Part shown: positions 44,625-55,950 of the stretch, piece by piece | How positions within the stretch are numbered: position 1 is the stretch's first letter | Layout of the letters: every line of letters starts with the position of its first letter | Assembly: GCF_947495725.1 (NCBI RefSeq) | Contig: NZ_CANLZZ010000008.1 | Location: 62,001-126,000 of the forward strand | DNA: 64,000 bases | Direction of reading: 5' to 3' | Source: an uncultured Lutibacter sp. | GTDB taxonomy: Bacteria; Bacteroidota; Bacteroidia; Flavobacteriales; Flavobacteriaceae | Notes under the pieces: model-generated | Databases searched by the model: none | Told to the model about the DNA's origin: nothing | What the model saw: the letters and a program-made list of their open reading frames with translations, nothing else | Translations under genes and position numbers: made by a program

Positions 44625-45026
44625 TTACTTTTCGCCCATTGTTCTCATATAATGAACTGTAAGCCACATGTCTTCTTCGCTCATTTTCTTTTCAAAACTA
44701 GGCATATCATCTCGTCCTATATAACTTTTATAAAACAAAGCTCCGTCAGATTGTGCTTGGAATTTTTTGGAGGAAAAATCTCCCAAATCTCCTTCAACTT
44801 CATCGGCTTTTGGTCCATCTCCTAAACCTTCTTTACCGTGGCAAGATTTACAATGCTTTGCATACATGGATTTACCAATTGCAATGTTTTCTTTAGAAGC
44901 TTCTTCAGGATTGGTCATTTTTTCGTATTTCGCAGGAACCTTCCAAGGTTCTTGATCTAGAGATTTAAATGCAAATAAGCCTAGGCAAATAACCCCTATA
45001 AATGTTAAAAATTTAATTGTTTTCAT
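44625..45026 (-). CDS. Small monoheme cytochrome c
   Basis: 133 aa with a signal peptide or N-terminal anchor (about 1-22). One c-heme site CKSCH in AKHCKSCHGKEGLGDG, followed by GDFSSKKFQAQSDGALF and a C-terminal MSEEDMWLTVHYMRTMG helix, the shape of a class I cytochrome c with a Met ligand. Periplasmic electron carrier. Last gene of the leftward electron-transfer cluster that contains NrfD and Fe-S proteins. Confidence 0.9.
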   Translation of the reverse strand: MKTIKFLTFIGVICLGLFAFKSLDQEPWKVPAKYEKMTNPEEASKENIAIGKSMYAKHCKSCHGKEGLGDGPKADEVEGDLGDFSSKKFQAQSDGALFYKSYIGRDDMPSFEKKMSEEDMWLTVHYMRTMGEK

Positions 45027-45096
45027 ATTTGTTGTCTAATGTTAATTAATGTTACTAAATAAATATCAATAATAATACCAATAAATTATGGTTGAT

Positions 45097-45999
45097 TTAA
45101 TCTTCTTTCGCTAATTCTAATTCTTTCCCTTCATTTTTAATTTTAATTAAATTAACTATTGTGTAAATAAAGTTAGCCCAAATACCAACCAATAATATTG
45201 TTAAAACAATATACATCCAAATAGGTGCACTTTCTGACCATAGCGTATTATTGTTTTCAATAATTTTATTGTTGAATACACCCCAATTTACTGATTTTTT
45301 TTGAATTATACTTCCAAATTCGTCGTGATCATCAACCAAAACAAAAACATCTAAATTTCCATTTATATTACCAGGAATGTCTGTAGGAAATTCAAACTCA
45401 TAAGTTCCATTTTCAAGAGTGCCTTCATTAATAGGCATTTTAGAAAGCATTCCGGCAACTGAAAATATTAAATCAATTTCTTCTTCTACATCAATTTTTT
45501 CTCCTATACTATCAATGGTGTAAGCTTTAATATTGGCGGTTTTTACACTGTCTATTTCTAACAAGTTCAATTCTAAAAATATATCTTTAACTGTTATTTC
45601 TTTTTCGTAACCGCTAATTGCGTCCGTTTCCTCAAAAACGGCACTTAAATTTATATAACCATTTTCATCTTGTAAAAACGATTTACTTTTAGGAATAATA
45701 AGTTGAGCTATACCTTCGTCATTAGTTTTTACCGTATTTAATAGAACTTTTTCTTCTTCAGTGAAATTGTAAAATTTAATTTCGGCTTGGTAAATAGGGA
45801 CTTTGTCTTTTCTGTCTTTTTTATTGGTAGCTATAAAATTAACTTCCAATAAACGAGAATTGTCTGGCTGTTTTATAGTATTAAATTTAAATGAAAACTT
45901 ATAATCTTTTACCGTTGTTTCTTGCGCAAAACTTTTAGTATTTAAAACAAATCCAATAAATACTAAAATAACTGAATATTTAATTAAATAATTTTTCAT
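45097..45999 (-). CDS. Predicted periplasmic protein with C-terminal membrane anchor, part of the NrfD cluster
   Basis: 300 aa: a signal peptide (about 1-25, ending SFAQ), then an Ig-like beta-rich periplasmic region of about 220 residues, then one membrane helix near residues 258-283 (APIWMYIVLTILLVGIWANF) and a short charged tail. No metal-binding motif. It lies 4 bases downstream of the NrfD gene, which argues for a role in assembly or structure of that complex. I do not recognise the family by name. Confidence 0.7.
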   Translation of the reverse strand: MKNYLIKYSVILVFIGFVLNTKSFAQETTVKDYKFSFKFNTIKQPDNSRLLEVNFIATNKKDRKDKVPIYQAEIKFYNFTEEEKVLLNTVKTNDEGIAQLIIPKSKSFLQDENGYINLSAVFEETDAISGYEKEITVKDIFLELNLLEIDSVKTANIKAYTIDSIGEKIDVEEEIDLIFSVAGMLSKMPINEGTLENGTYEFEFPTDIPGNINGNLDVFVLVDDHDEFGSIIQKKSVNWGVFNNKIIENNNTLWSESAPIWMYIVLTILLVGIWANFIYTIVNLIKIKNEGKELELAKED

Positions 46000-46003
46000 A
46001 AAA

Positions 46004-47338
46004 TTAATTTTTAGTAGTTGGTTTTAGTTTTCTTTTATATAATCTTTCATTATCTATAATTCCAGACATTGGAATAATTGGAACTAATTTCATTATTAAA
46101 ATAAAAAGTAAAATAAAAGTAGCAACACCTGTAAAACTCAACACCCATTCAACCCAAGTGGCGGTATAGTGAATAAATTCAGGTCTAGTATCTTGTATTG
46201 GTAAATAGGGTGTTTCTAGCGTAGGAACAATTATTAAATAACGGTTAAACCATAAGCCTATTATTGAAATTATAGCTACAATTGTAATAGATTTAATTGT
46301 TCTTAATTTTTTGAAAAATAGAATAACTATTGGCACTAAAACACCAATATAGTTGGCAAAAATAAACATCCAAAAATACCGTGTAAATAGTGTGTTAAGT
46401 AAGTTAGTATCATGTACTTTATGGCTAAACCAACGAGAAAAATATTCACTAAAAGTAAAATAGCCATATAATAAAGAAATTATTAATAATATCGCTCCAG
46501 CGGCCATAAAATGTACTTTTCTAATATAGTGTTCTAAATGATAATACTTTCGTATTAAATACATTGCAATTATTATTACGGCAACGCCAGAATATAATCC
46601 TGCAACAATAAAATATGGAGCAAAAATAGAACTATTCCAACCCGGTTGAAGTGTTAAACTAAATATCCAAGCTAGTACAGAGTAAGCTACAATTGCTAAT
46701 GCAATTACCATTGCCGACATAGTTCTTGTTATTTTATGAAGTTTGGCGCGTTGAGAATCTGTGTCTTGATAGCCAATTGCTAAAAATTTATAGGTTTTTT
46801 GTCGCCATTTTGAAGCTTTTTTACTGTTGTCTCTTAAAATAGCAAAGTCTGGAATAAAAGTTAAATATAAATAAATAAAACAACCAACTAAATCAGTCAT
46901 AATAGCTATAATATCCCAGGTTATTGGAGATTGAATTCTCGGATATAAAAATAAATAATGTAACCTATCTAAACGACCAATACATAATAAAATAAAAATA
47001 GGGCCAATGATTAGAGATAAAACCGTGATTATTTCAACAATTCTGGCAACGGAATTTTTCCAAGGTGTTTTAAAAAAATGTAATATTCCGGAAATAAATG
47101 CTCCAGAATAACTTAAACAAACAAAGAAAATAAAATTAATTATATAAATTCCCCAAACAACATTGTCGCGCATTCCTGTAACTTCATGTCCCTTTATAAC
47201 TTGAATTATAAATGCATAAAAGCCAACTAAAATTGTGGCAATTAAAATTCCAATCCAAATTTTTGATGTTTTTGTAGTTTTTTCTAACAATGGCAAAAAT
47301 TCCTTAACGAGTTCTCTTTTTCTGTTTTTAACATCCAT
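46004..47338 (-). CDS. NrfD/PsrC-family quinone-interacting membrane protein
   Basis: 444 aa with about ten membrane helices, no heme ligands needed in this family. Characteristic helices are VVWGIYIINFIFFVCLSYSG, RIVEIITVLSLIIGPIFILL and AIVAYSVLAWIFSLTLQPGW; an N-terminal cytoplasmic stretch precedes. The family exchanges electrons with the quinone pool and pairs with a 4Fe-4S subunit, here the gene 11 bases upstream. No catalytic molybdopterin subunit is encoded nearby. Confidence 0.85.
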   Translation of the reverse strand: MDVKNRKRELVKEFLPLLEKTTKTSKIWIGILIATILVGFYAFIIQVIKGHEVTGMRDNVVWGIYIINFIFFVCLSYSGAFISGILHFFKTPWKNSVARIVEIITVLSLIIGPIFILLCIGRLDRLHYLFLYPRIQSPITWDIIAIMTDLVGCFIYLYLTFIPDFAILRDNSKKASKWRQKTYKFLAIGYQDTDSQRAKLHKITRTMSAMVIALAIVAYSVLAWIFSLTLQPGWNSSIFAPYFIVAGLYSGVAVIIIAMYLIRKYYHLEHYIRKVHFMAAGAILLIISLLYGYFTFSEYFSRWFSHKVHDTNLLNTLFTRYFWMFIFANYIGVLVPIVILFFKKLRTIKSITIVAIISIIGLWFNRYLIIVPTLETPYLPIQDTRPEFIHYTATWVEWVLSFTGVATFILLFILIMKLVPIIPMSGIIDNERLYKRKLKPTTKN

Positions 47339-47349
47339 AAGTAAGAGCT

Positions 47350-48339
47350 TTAAATTTTACCTTGTTTTTTTAAATCTTGAACAAAAGGGACGTCCTTATA
47401 TCGTTCAATAATATCCTCGTCAACATTAAATCCTCGTTCGAGCGGGAATTGTCTGTTAACAGCTGGTAAATAATACACATTTGGTTTTGTACCTAAATGT
47501 TCTAGATGGCGATAGCCTCCTCGATCTTTTATTAGTTCAGAAAACCTCACAGTTTCTTCACCATTGGTAACAATATCTTCATTTTTATCTCCAAAATAAA
47601 TTACTCCCATTGGACAAGAAGAAGCACAATGTGGTAGTTTTCCTTGACGAAGCATATCAGGGCAAAAATCACATTTCATAACAGTTCCTTCTGCTGCAGG
47701 AACACTTGTTTCAGGAGAATAAGGTTGAGATTTGTCGTCAAATTTATCTTTATGTCCCCAATTAAATTGTCTTGCAGAATAAGGGCAACTTGTTATACAA
47801 AATTTACAACCAATACAACGATCATTATCAACCAAAACAATACCATCTGTACGTTTAAACGTTGCGCCCGTTGGGCAAACAGTAACACAAGGAGGTTCAT
47901 CACAATGAAAACAAGGTTTTGGAAGCCAATATGGCGAAGCTTCAGGGTTATCTTGAATTAATTGGACTTTCATAAATTCCTCGTTATAATCGAGTTTGTG
48001 TGCTTTTTGACAACCTTCTACACATTTACGTGCATTTTTACAACGCGCCAAATCAATAACCATTACAAATTTTCTATTTGGAATTCCTTTTCTCGATTCG
48101 TCAGAAGATATATGTGCTTCGGGGTATTTATTTACATGTGCTGCATCAACTTCAACCATTTTACCATCTGGAGTAAGCAATCGAATTTTTTCGTCAGAAG
48201 ATTTTGGTTCTTCTGCATTTTCAGATAAATTAGAAACTAAAGAAGTACCTGCCAATGCAGTTACACTAGACATTAATCCTAGTTTTAAAAACTTTCGTCT
48301 GTTAGTTCCTTCTTTTTTATTATTCTCTTTGTTTTGCAT
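47350..48339 (-). CDS. Tat-exported 4Fe-4S dicluster-type protein (HybA/DmsB-like)
   Basis: 329 aa. Twin-arginine signal NRRKFLKLGLMSSVTALAG (about 13-31). Iron-sulfur Cys groups in order: CKNARKCVEGC (Cys100, 106, 110; spacing longer than the usual CxxCxxC), CFHCDEPPCVTVCPTGA, CIGCKFCITSCPYSA, and CDFCPDMLRQGKLPHCASSCPMG. Four cubane clusters are expected. It passes electrons between NrfD and a periplasmic partner, presumably the cytochromes of this cluster. A hairpin (48376-48435) separates it from the upstream barrel gene. Confidence 0.88.
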   Translation of the reverse strand: MQNKENNKKEGTNRRKFLKLGLMSSVTALAGTSLVSNLSENAEEPKSSDEKIRLLTPDGKMVEVDAAHVNKYPEAHISSDESRKGIPNRKFVMVIDLARCKNARKCVEGCQKAHKLDYNEEFMKVQLIQDNPEASPYWLPKPCFHCDEPPCVTVCPTGATFKRTDGIVLVDNDRCIGCKFCITSCPYSARQFNWGHKDKFDDKSQPYSPETSVPAAEGTVMKCDFCPDMLRQGKLPHCASSCPMGVIYFGDKNEDIVTNGEETVRFSELIKDRGGYRHLEHLGTKPNVYYLPAVNRQFPLERGFNVDEDIIERYKDVPFVQDLKKQGKI

Positions 48340-48375
48340 AATTAACCTTTGTTGAAATGGTACGTTAATAAAATT

Positions 48376-48435
48376 AGACAGGCCTTCAAAATAGAAAGTT
48401 TGAGGTGTTATTTATTTGTTTTTGTCGGCCTGCCT
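48376..48435 (-). terminator. Possible stem-loop between the barrel and Fe-S genes
   Basis: AGACAGGCC and GGCCTGCCT pair over nine bases (one G-T) around a 42-base loop; the minus-strand side downstream is T-rich. It could attenuate transcription into the inner-membrane genes or mark the boundary of two operons. Confidence 0.4.
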
Positions 48436-48450
48436 AGATATTGAGTTTGG

Positions 48451-49305
48451 TTAAAAATTGTAAATTCTAGTAATATTGAATCCAATTAAGAAATCGCCAT
48501 TAAAAAAATCATATTGATTGTACATGTAGTTCTTTTGCTGAACTAATGCATTGTAATTTGTAAGCATTAATTGAAACTCATGCGCTGATGTTGCAAATTC
48601 AAACCCTAAACTAATTCCCGGTTTTGGATCAAACTGACTATTGTCAAATTTTGTAATTGGTTGGCTATAGTCAATTAAAATAGAAGTTTGTGGACTAATT
48701 TTGATTCTGCCTCCAAAAGCAACAGAAACTAAATCATTTTTCATATCAGGGTGCACCAGATTAAAGTGTGAAATACTTGGAGCTATTTGAAAAGAAATAC
48801 TCGGACTAAACTTTTTAGCAATAATTAATTGATTGAAGTACGAGTATCTATCTTGAATCATATTAAACTTATCCTTTTTTCTTGCATCAATAGTAAAATT
48901 ACCATAATAAGAAACGCTAATAGGCATACTATTAGAGCGTGTTTGTCTTAATAAAGCAACTTTCCAATTAAAATCTTGAAAGCGATTAAATTTGGTAGTT
49001 CCATACCCAATTGTAAGTCTTTCGTGAATTCCATAAGCTAAACCAATTCTAATATTAGAATCACCCCAAAAACCGGCTAAATCGTTTCCTGAAGGACTGT
49101 TTATTAATCCAAACCTATGTTGCATTTGTACTTCCAATGCATTTTTACTTAGCAATACGTTTGAAGGATTGTCGATTATAAGAGAACTTTCAAAGGCATC
49201 TCGCTCTAATTTTTCTTTTTTCTTTTTAGTTTCCTCTTGTGCGTTCACTAAAAAGGGAAGTATTAAAAAGATAAAAAGTAATGTTTTATAATTTTTCATA
49301 TTCAA
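48451..49305 (-). CDS. DUF5777-family outer-membrane beta-barrel protein
   Basis: 284 aa with a signal peptide (about 1-22, ending VNAQ), a Lys/Glu-rich linker (about 24-38) and then alternating hydrophobic strands to a terminal aromatic (RIYNF). Typical family wording: VQMQHRFGLINSPSGNDLAGFWGDSNIRIGLAYGI (shown here as the parts MQHRFGLIN and NIRIGLAYGI), RLTIGYGTTK. About 12 strands can be counted. Barrels of this family lie beside cytochrome genes; here the neighbours are a monoheme lipoprotein (12 bases upstream) and the Fe-S/NrfD pair. Role as a pore or insulating sleeve for cytochromes is inferred. Confidence 0.78.
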   Translation of the reverse strand: MNMKNYKTLLFIFLILPFLVNAQEETKKKKEKLERDAFESSLIIDNPSNVLLSKNALEVQMQHRFGLINSPSGNDLAGFWGDSNIRIGLAYGIHERLTIGYGTTKFNRFQDFNWKVALLRQTRSNSMPISVSYYGNFTIDARKKDKFNMIQDRYSYFNQLIIAKKFSPSISFQIAPSISHFNLVHPDMKNDLVSVAFGGRIKISPQTSILIDYSQPITKFDNSQFDPKPGISLGFEFATSAHEFQLMLTNYNALVQQKNYMYNQYDFFNGDFLIGFNITRIYNF

Positions 49306-49316
49306 AATCTTAAAAA

Positions 49317-49700
49317 TTAATTGTTCTTGGCGCCTTGATTAATCCAAGCCTTTAATAATCCTATTTCTTCAATAGATAATCCGCCATGTCCAGAGGATAC
49401 TACAGTAATTAATTTACTAACATCTGCATCTTCAGAAATAACATAATCAGGAATTAAAGCATTATATGAATTACCTTCCCTAAGGTCAGGATCTCTATTT
49501 TCATTATGACAACCTATGCAATTTGCAGTAAAAATAGGTTGAATGCTACTGCTTAATTCAATTTCAACATAATTAGGATCTGTTGGGTCTGTTGGAATTT
49601 CAGATGGATTTAATATATGTTCTGGAATTTCATCGTAATAACATGAAAAGCAAAGAAAACTTAGGCTACTAACTAGAACTATTTGCAATAGTTTTTTCAT
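49317..49700 (-). CDS. Monoheme cytochrome c lipoprotein
   Basis: 127 aa. Lipoprotein signal with lipobox CFSC (Cys20), a Pro/Asp-rich linker (DPTDPNY), then a cytochrome-like domain with one heme motif CIGCHNEN near residue 60 and a C-terminal helix LSIEEIGLLKAWINQGA, a pattern common to cytochrome-like lipoproteins of Bacteroidota. Anchored probably to the outer membrane. Directly upstream of the barrel gene and downstream of the hexaheme gene. Confidence 0.85.
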   Translation of the reverse strand: MKKLLQIVLVSSLSFLCFSCYYDEIPEHILNPSEIPTDPTDPNYVEIELSSSIQPIFTANCIGCHNENRDPDLREGNSYNALIPDYVISEDADVSKLITVVSSGHGGLSIEEIGLLKAWINQGAKNN

Positions 49701-49786
49701 CTGTCTTGTTTTTTAAATTTATTAACTTGTACTATTAAATTTCAATTTGAAATTTTAAGTTAACCTTATCATTAATGTCATTTATA

Positions 49787-49819
49787 AAAGTTCAGGAGGA
49801 TAATAATCTCCTGAACTTT
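49787..49819 (-). terminator. Stem-loop after the hexaheme cytochrome gene
   Basis: AAAGTTCAGGAG (49787-49798) and CTCCTGAACTTT (49808-49819) are 12 perfect pairs with a 9-base loop. It lies 15 bases downstream of the hexaheme stop on the minus strand; no long T tract follows, so it may stabilise the 3' end or cause partial readthrough into the next genes. Confidence 0.6.
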
Positions 49820-49833
49820 AAAATATCTGACTA

Positions 49834-50913
49834 TTATTTTAATGCTTCAATTGAATTTATAAGTAAAGCTTTGGCGTAATTAGGGTTGTGTACACCTTGA
49901 CTTTTGTCCTCTTCTAAAGTTTTATAATTCCAAATAGCTTGTGCAACTTTTGCAGGAGCCACTAAAGGATTAGAAGTACCGGCTCTATTTACTCCGTCTC
50001 CACCCAATACATAGCCACTGGCATCAATATATTTTTGTTCAAATAAAAGGTTATGTAATTCTTCCATACCTTGAGCAAATGTTTTACCAGTTTCTATCAT
50101 TACATCGGAAGGGGCTCCATTTGTATGACAAGCTGTACAAGATTGTGAGGTTGGACTCCAAGAATGTAAACCTTCTGATACATCTGAAGATTCTCCCATA
50201 TGACAACTAACACAAGAAGCGCCAGTTCTATGAGTTGAGGTTCCAACACCTGGGTAGCCAACGGTACCCGAAATATTTGCAGCCATAACACCTTCTACTA
50301 AAGTAGCTTGTGGTCCATGATGTGGTCCAAAGCGGAAACTTGTTATTGTGTAATCTCCAGTTGATCCTGGAACAGGATAACTATTTCGAGGTTGGTGACA
50401 AGTAATACACATATTGCTTGTTCCTCCAAAATCAATAACTGTAGCCTCGTCAATTACTAAGGTAACAGGGTTAAAAGATCTTAAAGCATAGTCATGTCCA
50501 TCATTTTCAAAATCAAATGTACTGTGACTTGAGTGGCAGGTTGTACATGAAATAGGAGATGGGTTTGTATATCCTTCAGGGTTAATGGCTCCATTTGTTA
50601 CATAATCTACATAACCTTCACTTCCATGACATTGTGCACAACTAGTGCTAGAACCTCTTGCGAAGGAAGTACCTGTTGCATGACCAGATAAATCAAATGA
50701 TTCATTTATAGGTGTTCTGTGGCTGTTTGAGTGACAAGCAACACAAGAAGCTGTGCCGTCAACACCATCAATACCGTCAACACCATCAATACCATTTGTG
50801 CCATCTGCACCTGCAAATCCAACAGGTCCCATAATAGGGTCACTTGTACATTGAATAAACATTAAACTTGATGCCAAAATCATCAAGAATCCTATTAATT
50901 TTAAGTTTTTCAT
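49834..50913 (-). CDS. Hexaheme cytochrome c lipoprotein with collagen-like Gly-X-Y segment
   Basis: 359 aa. Lipobox FIQC (Cys22) is followed by a Gly-X-Y run of nine triplets (about 29-55: GPV GFA GAD GTN GID GVD ...), then six CxxCH sites in order: CVACH, CAQCH, CTTCH, CITCH, CVSCH, CTACH (about residues 57-255). Additional His such as GPHHGP can serve as distal ligands. The final 90 residues are helical without hemes. I infer a membrane-anchored multiheme electron carrier, perhaps exposed at the surface on the collagen-like stalk. First gene of the cluster. Family-level function is not recognised. Confidence 0.88.
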   Translation of the reverse strand: MKNLKLIGFLMILASSLMFIQCTSDPIMGPVGFAGADGTNGIDGVDGIDGVDGTASCVACHSNSHRTPINESFDLSGHATGTSFARGSSTSCAQCHGSEGYVDYVTNGAINPEGYTNPSPISCTTCHSSHSTFDFENDGHDYALRSFNPVTLVIDEATVIDFGGTSNMCITCHQPRNSYPVPGSTGDYTITSFRFGPHHGPQATLVEGVMAANISGTVGYPGVGTSTHRTGASCVSCHMGESSDVSEGLHSWSPTSQSCTACHTNGAPSDVMIETGKTFAQGMEELHNLLFEQKYIDASGYVLGGDGVNRAGTSNPLVAPAKVAQAIWNYKTLEEDKSQGVHNPNYAKALLINSIEALK

Positions 50914-51271: not shown

Positions 51272-51308
51272 CAAAAAAAGCCGAACTATTAATAGTTCGG
51301 CTCTTTTT
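51272..51308 (-). terminator. Terminator after the TerC gene
   Basis: AGCCGAACTATT (51279-51290) and AATAGTTCGGCT (51291-51302) are perfectly complementary, with flanking A and T runs. It lies 20 bases past the TerC stop on the minus strand. Confidence 0.88.
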
Positions 51309-55512: not shown

Positions 55513-55950
55513 ATGAAGAAAATACTATTGGGGATTCTAGTTTTTGTTGCGCTAATTCAGTTTATTAGACCCGAAAAAAATAGTTCTAAAGAGGATATAA
55601 ATCATATTTCAAAAGAAGTATCAATACCAATAAATGTTCAGGAAATTATAAAGATTTCGTGTGCCGATTGCCATTCAAATAATACAGTTTATCCATGGTA
55701 TAGTAAAATAGCACCAATATCGTGGTATTTAGCAATGCATGTTAATGACGGAAAAGAGCATTTAAATTTTTCGGAATGGACCTTGTATAACAAAAATCAA
55801 AAAGCACATATTTTAAAAGATTTAAAAGAAGTACTTAAAAATCATAAAATGCCATTGCAAAGCTATTTATGGTTGCATAAAAATGCAGAGTTAACAAATA
55901 AACAATATGCAGAACTGTTAAATTGGACTAACTCAATTATAATAGAATAA
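55513..55950 (+). CDS. Heme-binding domain protein (single CxxCH)
   Basis: 145 aa with an N-terminal signal or anchor helix (about 4-18) and the Bacteroidota heme-binding domain: VQEIIKISCADCHSNNTVYPWY has the CADCH heme site near residues 55-59, followed by the typical PISWYLAMHVNDGKEHLNFSEW and MPLQSYLWLHKNAELTNKQ. It is periplasmic and probably binds one c-type heme; role in redox sensing or electron transfer is not settled. Followed after 7 bases by the MORN-repeat gene. Confidence 0.87.
   Translation: MKKILLGILVFVALIQFIRPEKNSSKEDINHISKEVSIPINVQEIIKISCADCHSNNTVYPWYSKIAPISWYLAMHVNDGKEHLNFSEWTLYNKNQKAHILKDLKEVLKNHKMPLQSYLWLHKNAELTNKQYAELLNWTNSIIIE

Follow-up and report, generated by a model that had tools for sequence, protein, structure and literature searches.

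A putative molybdenum-free menaquinol:cytochrome c module with outer-membrane heme lipoproteins in Lutibacter and other Bacteroidota

What does an operon do that encodes a quinol-type membrane subunit, an iron–sulfur (Fe-S) protein and several c-type cytochromes, but no catalytic subunit? The question is raised by seven co-oriented open reading frames (ORFs), all on the - strand, at 44625-50913 of a 64,000-nucleotide stretch of DNA (hereafter, the window) from a Lutibacter genome of 4.24 Mb in 29 contigs. The gaps between the ORFs are of 4 to 133 bases. An earlier note on this DNA had named the products as a hexaheme lipoprotein, a monoheme lipoprotein, a DUF5777 barrel, a Tat-type Fe-S protein, an NrfD-type membrane protein, an anchored protein and a small cytochrome c, and had read them as all parts of a flavobacterial conduit from quinol to the cell surface. 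The leftward run was confirmed with all its ORFs, their order and their strand. The phrase "all parts of a conduit" says more than the sequence does; no member of the run is shown to form a path through the outer membrane.

In our reading, which we hold to be somewhat likelier right than wrong, the operon encodes a molybdenum (Mo)-free menaquinol:cytochrome c oxidoreductase, distantly related to ActC and the Fe-S part of ActB of alternative complex III, together with outer-membrane heme lipoproteins that receive its electrons. The NrfD subunit would oxidise menaquinol on its periplasmic face, and the electrons would travel along the Fe-S protein, with its three [4Fe-4S] clusters and one distal cluster of the [3Fe-4S] type, and on to the small cytochrome c, which would be held near the Fe-S protein by an immunoglobulin-like (Ig-like) subunit anchored to NrfD. 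From there they would pass to the outer-membrane lipoprotein cytochromes, that is, the monoheme protein with the DUF5777 barrel and the hexaheme protein on its tether. We infer the direction of this flow, as well as the contacts other than that between NrfD and the Ig-like subunit. The module would most likely serve respiration when oxygen is short.

Distribution of the module and the search for a catalytic subunit

A scan of named species returned at least 585 relatives of the Fe-S protein, and the best 80 of them, all labelled as Bacteroidota or its subgroups bar one "uncultured bacterium", were taken as named loci. Two molybdopterin queries found no molybdopterin subunit in any of them (80/80 loci). 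A four-sequence Mo-type profile that included the N-terminal 640 residues of ActB gave in the same loci a single chance match of 75 residues (L093, E 0.0019); it did recover the ActB of the window's genome and, from other gene clusters (L035, L036, L163), their Mo proteins. The lack of a Mo subunit, which the earlier note had pointed out, is thus a constant feature and not a local loss, and a complex of the DMSO-reductase type that has lost its Mo subunit locally was rejected. The difference from complexes of that type within the CISM group lies exactly here, in the molybdopterin catalytic subunit, which was not found in the 80 named loci of the module. Among the other ORFs of at least 500 residues, none was seen next to the core in over 9 of the 80 loci; the recurrent groups of this length include one of 9 loci, with no library assignment, and one of 8, which is an NrfD fusion. 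As many of the loci stop at contig edges, this survey is not exhaustive. Elsewhere in the window's genome (L035:4958-12675), a 631-residue ORF with 12 CXXCH motifs lies beside a molybdopterin/Fe-S/NrfD cluster.

Within the genus, a relative of the Fe-S protein at E 1e-90 or better is present in 30 of 37 Lutibacter genomes; among the matches listed, its nearest named relatives are those of Lutibacter oceani, agarilyticus and litoralis (89-90% identity). The window shares the order hexaheme–monoheme–DUF5777–Fe-S–NrfD–anchor–cytochrome, including an orthologous core, with 7 of 16 other Lutibacter loci, a recurrence that is more than chance. Locus L052 has the same seven-gene order, but a paralogous second core comes first. 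The remaining Lutibacter loci carry a second core in tandem (with Fe-S proteins 45-50% identical), contain an inserted gene of the EB_dh type, lack outer-membrane genes on the stretch retrieved, or run into the end of a contig.

Neighbourhoods were counted in those 46 of the 80 named loci that extend for 4.5 kb or more to either side. NrfD is present in all 46, the small cytochrome in 45, a separate anchored gene in 38, and DUF5777 and the monoheme type in 37 each. When the seven NrfD fusions described below are counted, the anchored part is present in 45/46 loci; an eighth fusion is L076. The third outer-membrane component varies more: the hexaheme is found in 9 loci, an EB_dh type in 13 and a YceI type in 14, with any of these three in 30 (the names EB_dh and YceI rest on the Pfam matches of two and one representatives, respectively). 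The core of Fe-S protein, NrfD, Ig-like anchored protein and cytochrome c recurs across Bacteroidota together with the monoheme–DUF5777 pair, and the route is not restricted to flavobacteria. The Fe-S subunit was detected in 42 of 395 sampled Bacteroidia genomes, about one in ten, and in 31 of 197 genera; the more divergent anchored protein turned up in 10 of 395 genomes from the phylum. A gene for a CRP/FNR-type regulator lies near the core in 19/80 loci, and a search of plasmids returned distant Fe-S proteins only (5 records, covering at most 74% of the query).

The inner-membrane core

The NrfD subunit (46004-47338) matched the Pfam NrfD model at E 1.2e-34 and has 10 hydrophobic segments. 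Its profile, when compared with the PDB, matched ActC of four alternative complex III structures (E 4e-65 to 6e-72; the best, 6f0k_C, at 5.6e-72) and ActF (4e-13 to 2e-5), and no other NrfD-family chain under 0.01. Among solved structures, ActC is the closest to the window NrfD. In a tree of 72 sequences, which held few outgroups, the module NrfDs grouped with ActC/ActF (local support 0.95), and E. coli NrfD and HybB, along with the genome's own PsrC-like and fused proteins, fell apart from them.

PMC8076601 names His139, Ser164, Asp169 and Asp253 as residues of the ActC quinol site, and gives Asp, Glu, His or Ser as the quinol-protonating residue of other NrfD-family members. We compared these positions in 131 NrfD ORFs of 380-500 residues (113 distinct). 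Ser164 and Asp169 are kept in 130/131. The position of His139 is taken by Cys in 50, Asp in 80 and Ile in 1 (44, 68 and 1 among the distinct ORFs); the single Ile sequence groups with ActF in the tree, and one of the Asp sequences is that of the L163 cluster. In the window, this residue is Cys119, and the Cys clade to which it belongs is monophyletic (support 0.88). The Asp253 position holds Leu (87), Ile (41) or Val (2) in 130/131 ORFs and is Ile225 in the window. Five places past Cys119 stands Asp124, a position that remains acidic (Asp or Glu) in 128/131. The second or third tandem Fe-S–NrfD–anchor–cytochrome copies of other Lutibacter loci (among them L038:12850-16015 and L048:3084-11122) have Asp at the position of Cys119; the window's genome has one core only.

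The Fe-S subunit (47350-48339) matched Pfam 4Fe-4S domains and has an RRKF motif of the Tat type. The earlier description of it held as to this motif and the four Cys groups, but its cluster Cys number 15 rather than 16. These 15 are kept in all of 130 Fe-S ORFs (123 distinct), and in all of them the second Cys of group I is lost, with Ala, Leu, Val, Glu or Tyr in its place. In the genome's own ActB, a Thr stands in group III instead, whereas all 16 Cys are retained in NrfC, in HybA and in two more of the genome's Fe-S proteins. Loss of one such Cys usually gives a [3Fe-4S] cluster. The Cys pattern points to a distal cluster of the [3Fe-4S] type at the far end of the chain, with both its type and its geometry being predictions. 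In many loci, among them L055 (14129-14398) and L152, the Fe-S gene is preceded by one for a short protein, of about 75-120 residues, whose start is Tat-like and of which a segment resembles the N-terminal extension of the Fe-S subunit; among 36 short matches to the Fe-S profile, some are fragments at contig edges or other proteins.

The anchored protein (45097-45999) has a hydrophobic N-terminus and one C-terminal hydrophobic segment. The window sequence matched nothing firmly in Pfam, NCBIfam or the PDB, and the Ig-like domain Big_1 was found in 12 of 31 relatives. In eight Bacteroidota loci (L066, L069-L072, L075, L076 and L095; Bacteroidales/Bacteroidetes), NrfD and the Ig-like protein form one ORF of 738-751 residues, which directly supports their belonging to one complex; L070, L066 and L095 were checked domain by domain, and the other five by length and NrfD match. 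The last gene of the run (44625-45026) encodes the small cytochrome c (Pfam E 1.3e-10), which has one CXXCH motif and is 32% identical to the ORF in the ActE position of the act cluster, a full copy of which the window's genome also carries.

The module shares with alternative complex III an ActC-like NrfD, an Fe-S protein for four clusters in which one motif is of the [3Fe-4S] type, an ActE-like monoheme cytochrome, and the logic of a quinol:cytochrome c oxidoreductase, for which no Mo is needed. In contrast to that complex, its seven ORFs include no genes for ActA, ActD or ActF and no Mo-like half of ActB, the missing Cys is in group I and not in group III, Cys or Asp replaces His139, and an Ig-like subunit and outer-membrane genes are attached. 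DsrOP of DsrMKJOP, NrfCD, TtrBC and PsrBC, of the NrfD/CISM family, have the same pair of NrfD and a periplasmic-side Fe-S protein, but the module has neither a catalytic partner nor DsrMKJ, and its matches to the DsrO and DsrP models fell below the curated cut-offs (168.4 of 200 bits and 73.6 of 350 bits, respectively). The core is best read as a variant of the NrfD family and not as a member of alternative complex III. That the inner-membrane half would act as a Mo-free quinol:cytochrome c module related to that complex is well supported by the sequence comparisons, and with it the earlier pairing of a quinol-linked NrfD/Fe-S unit with periplasmic and outer-membrane cytochromes. What the module adds is a quinol:cytochrome c branch without a catalytic subunit, recognisable by its Cys pattern and tied to outer-membrane heme lipoproteins. 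Our literature search, outside of which lay most subscription papers and supplements, found no account of the module, no name for it and no mention of DUF5777.

The outer-membrane unit

In the outer-membrane half, a barrel and heme lipoproteins form a unit that is genuine and recurs. The monoheme protein (49317-49700) has one CXXCH motif and a lipoprotein-like start, and its gene lies next to that of the DUF5777 barrel (48451-49305). A monoheme-type gene is adjacent to 86 of 91 DUF5777 ORFs (86 distinct barrels), a count that is biased, as most of these loci were chosen for the core. In five loci chosen for DUF5777 (L146-L149, L165), the monoheme-type gene was present in all five and adjacent in four, and NrfD in none. 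In L092 (8288-9478), L093 (5154-6356) and L110 (2598-3788), a monoheme-type gene and a second DUF5777, on the opposite strand, have upstream of them an ORF of 396-400 residues that resembles a lipoprotein and has two CX4CH motifs.

Could this barrel be an MtrB-like sheath, as the likeness to the MtrAB and OmbB porin-cytochrome complexes, with a barrel gene beside c-type cytochrome genes and a multiheme neighbour, would suggest? The window barrel matched DUF5777 at E 6.7e-75, and an AlphaFold2 model from 48 sequences (pLDDT 93.9) has 12 strands. Foldseek placed it near OmpG, NanC (TM 0.68 by target, 0.51 by query), the COG4313 channel and FapF, all at low sequence identity. MtrB is larger and plugged by a decaheme, while the partner of the module barrel is monoheme. 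The 12 predicted strands, below the minimum of 14 that a published porin-cytochrome screen required (PMC7399161), and the matches to small barrels make a sheath around a multiheme protein unlikely. Of the earlier proposal of a quinol-to-surface route, the quinol-linked core and the cytochromes remain, and the porin-cytochrome conduit as worded does not: the barrel is in all likelihood too narrow for a design of the MtrAB type, with small-barrel matches such as NanC, even though it is conserved together with its cytochrome. The barrel has no CXXCH motif, and a heme bound within it by the invariant His63 and His242 was rejected, as both residues are predicted from strand parity to face outward and at different heights. 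A small plug, or a partial insertion of the monoheme protein into the barrel, is possible. No barrel–monoheme fusion was seen in the ORFs examined; seven of 12 long hits were inspected and turned out to be extended barrels or diheme CX4CH lipoproteins.

The hexaheme protein (49834-50913) has six CXXCH motifs, a lipobox Cys at position 22 and a collagen-like GxxGxDG linker, and several multiheme Pfam models match it. The His of the six CXXCH motifs and six further His are invariant in 15 Bacteroidota sequences (one with CX4CH at one site). With one distal His per heme, all six hemes can have bis-His ligation and a catalytic heme is not apparent, so the protein looks like a carrier. A nitrite-type enzyme was rejected, since the match to octaheme and NrfA chains is weak and a distal His is available for every heme. 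The structure model is poor (pLDDT 55.6).

Whether these lipoproteins reach the cell surface was judged from the export signal defined in PMC5080379, scored as at least two acidic residues at +3 to +6 of the lipid Cys wherever that Cys was found. The signal is present in 21/26 SusD-type proteins of the genus, 2/29 of the hexaheme family, 22/69 monoheme, 12/25 EB_dh and 10/20 YceI proteins. The window monoheme (CYYDEI) has it, and the window hexaheme (CTSDPI, one acidic residue) does not, which leaves the latter with a weak export signal. An extracellular electron transfer conduit would have electrons run from the monoheme protein in or on the barrel to a surface hexaheme, and on to minerals, humics or an electrode. 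The tight barrel–monoheme pairing, the exchangeable redox lipoproteins upstream, the tether of the hexaheme, and the resemblance of the monoheme start and of many EB_dh and YceI partners to an export signal all fit such a conduit. It is hard to reconcile with a barrel of the OmpG/NanC/FapF size class that lacks a heme motif and a fused cytochrome and whose conserved His point outward, or with the hexaheme's poor signal. A surface conduit is possible, but we do not favour it and rate it unlikely.

The same data allow for a trans-envelope route of a new architecture, in which a reduced, Mo-free relative of alternative complex III would be coupled, across Bacteroidota, to an outer-membrane unit that stands on its own and consists of a 12-stranded barrel, a monoheme lipoprotein that nearly always goes with it, and an exchangeable redox lipoprotein (hexaheme, EB_dh type or YceI type) that would set the external partner. 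We consider this improbable as well. With the module at hand, the question of an electron route across the outer membrane in Bacteroidota becomes testable. The quinol oxidases known from extracellular electron transfer are few in Bacteroidetes according to a survey (PMC6295460; 0 CymA, 5 CbcL-type, 1 ImcH). Neither the unspecified novel porin-cytochrome candidates in Bacteroidetes of PMC6344600 nor the seven-gene cluster with six multiheme genes of PMC8258643 could be matched to the module from the portions of these papers at hand.

Electrons might also run the other way, from an external or periplasmic donor through the lipoprotein cytochromes to the cytochrome c pool or menaquinone. The anatomy is equally compatible with such a flow, a Cys at the quinol site allows for an altered role, and a monoheme protein with a barrel recalls iron oxidation of the Cyc2 type (PMC6344600). 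The barrel of Cyc2 has 16 strands. The module resembles Cyc2 in combining one heme with one small barrel, but does so with two genes, a lipoprotein heme domain and fewer strands, and no Cyc2-type fusion was found among the ORFs examined. As the Asp-type sister clade keeps a usual quinol residue in the same gene context, and no donor is known, we regard inward flow as very unlikely.

Respiratory context and regulatory signals

Several points weigh against an oxidoreductase that hands menaquinol electrons to the outer-membrane lipoproteins. In the window clade, Cys stands where other family members have their quinol-protonating residue, and the ActC Asp253 faces Ile or Leu; with two of the four listed quinol-site residues changed, a plain ActC-like mechanism becomes less probable. 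In 9/46 loci, the core occurs without DUF5777 within the examined span. Moreover, the small cytochrome c could feed other enzymes, and the lipoproteins not at all.

The module was also compared with the occurrence of N2O reductase (NosZ). In 38 Lutibacter genomes, the module and a NosZ scoring over the cut-off occur together in 27, the module alone in 4, NosZ alone in 2 and neither in 5 (Fisher, 0.004). In the 395 Bacteroidia genomes, the corresponding numbers for the core are 30, 12, 98 and 255 (p 7e-8), so that NosZ is present in 30/42 genomes with the core vs 98/353 others. The link persisted within the 290 genomes that have ActB (at E 1e-150; core and NosZ 26, core alone 7, NosZ alone 83, neither 174; 4e-7), and by genus (NosZ in 23/31 genera with the core vs 59/166 without; 1e-4); in the other 105 genomes, the numbers are 4, 5, 15 and 81 (0.054). 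The core is not linked with ActB itself (33/42 vs 257/353; 0.47). When the 42 core genomes were compared with 38 ActB-bearing controls, NosZ was found in 30 vs 12 (7e-4), whereas neither NirK (5/42 vs 5/38, one core case below the curated cut-off) nor NrfA (3/42 vs 0/38) was enriched. On this basis NrfA and NirK were rejected as a regular partner of the core, in a comparison that did not extend to NirS or further reductases. The enrichment of the core alongside NosZ in the sampled Bacteroidia is new here.

One reading of these counts is a supply line for the periplasmic N2O reductase, in which the core would oxidise menaquinol, its cytochrome c would reduce NosZ, and the outer-membrane part would be accessory. 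The co-occurrence within ActB-bearing genomes and by genus, and the lack of such a link for NirK and NrfA, argue for it. However, 12/42 core genomes, including that of the window, have no NosZ, 98/128 NosZ genomes have no core, and NosZ is lacking in 4/31 Lutibacter genomes with the module. In this sample the link stands, but it may be an indirect one: life at low oxygen could be what both indicate, and counting by genus corrects for ancestry only partly, so that a common habitat or ancestry could produce it. We regard such a supply line to NosZ as distinctly unlikely. The earlier alternative of a chain that feeds a reductase encoded elsewhere gains ground from the association. The window's own genome has NrfA, and the module without NosZ. 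Which quinol oxidoreductase feeds N2O reductase in Bacteroidota, a greenhouse-gas sink, becomes a testable question.

Two hairpins mark the transcript of the putative oxidoreductase operon. One, of 12 pairs, lies between cistrons just 3' of the hexaheme stop codon (49787-49819, - strand), and its fold recurs beyond the window in 8 further Lutibacter loci, with compensatory changes (7 of 13 consensus pairs are altered on both sides); it may raise the share of the hexaheme in the transcript. The other, of 14 pairs with a T tail (44610-44579, - strand), is terminator-like and closes the operon. Promoter scans gave about what was expected from shuffled sequences (39 vs 35 matches), and a Bacteroidota -33/-7 pattern was uninformative, with 132 matches in the window when one mismatch was allowed. 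A further inverted repeat lies at 51279-51302, before terC, and a protein with a Haem_bd domain (E 2.2e-44) is encoded on the + strand at 55513-55950, a few kilobases from the module.

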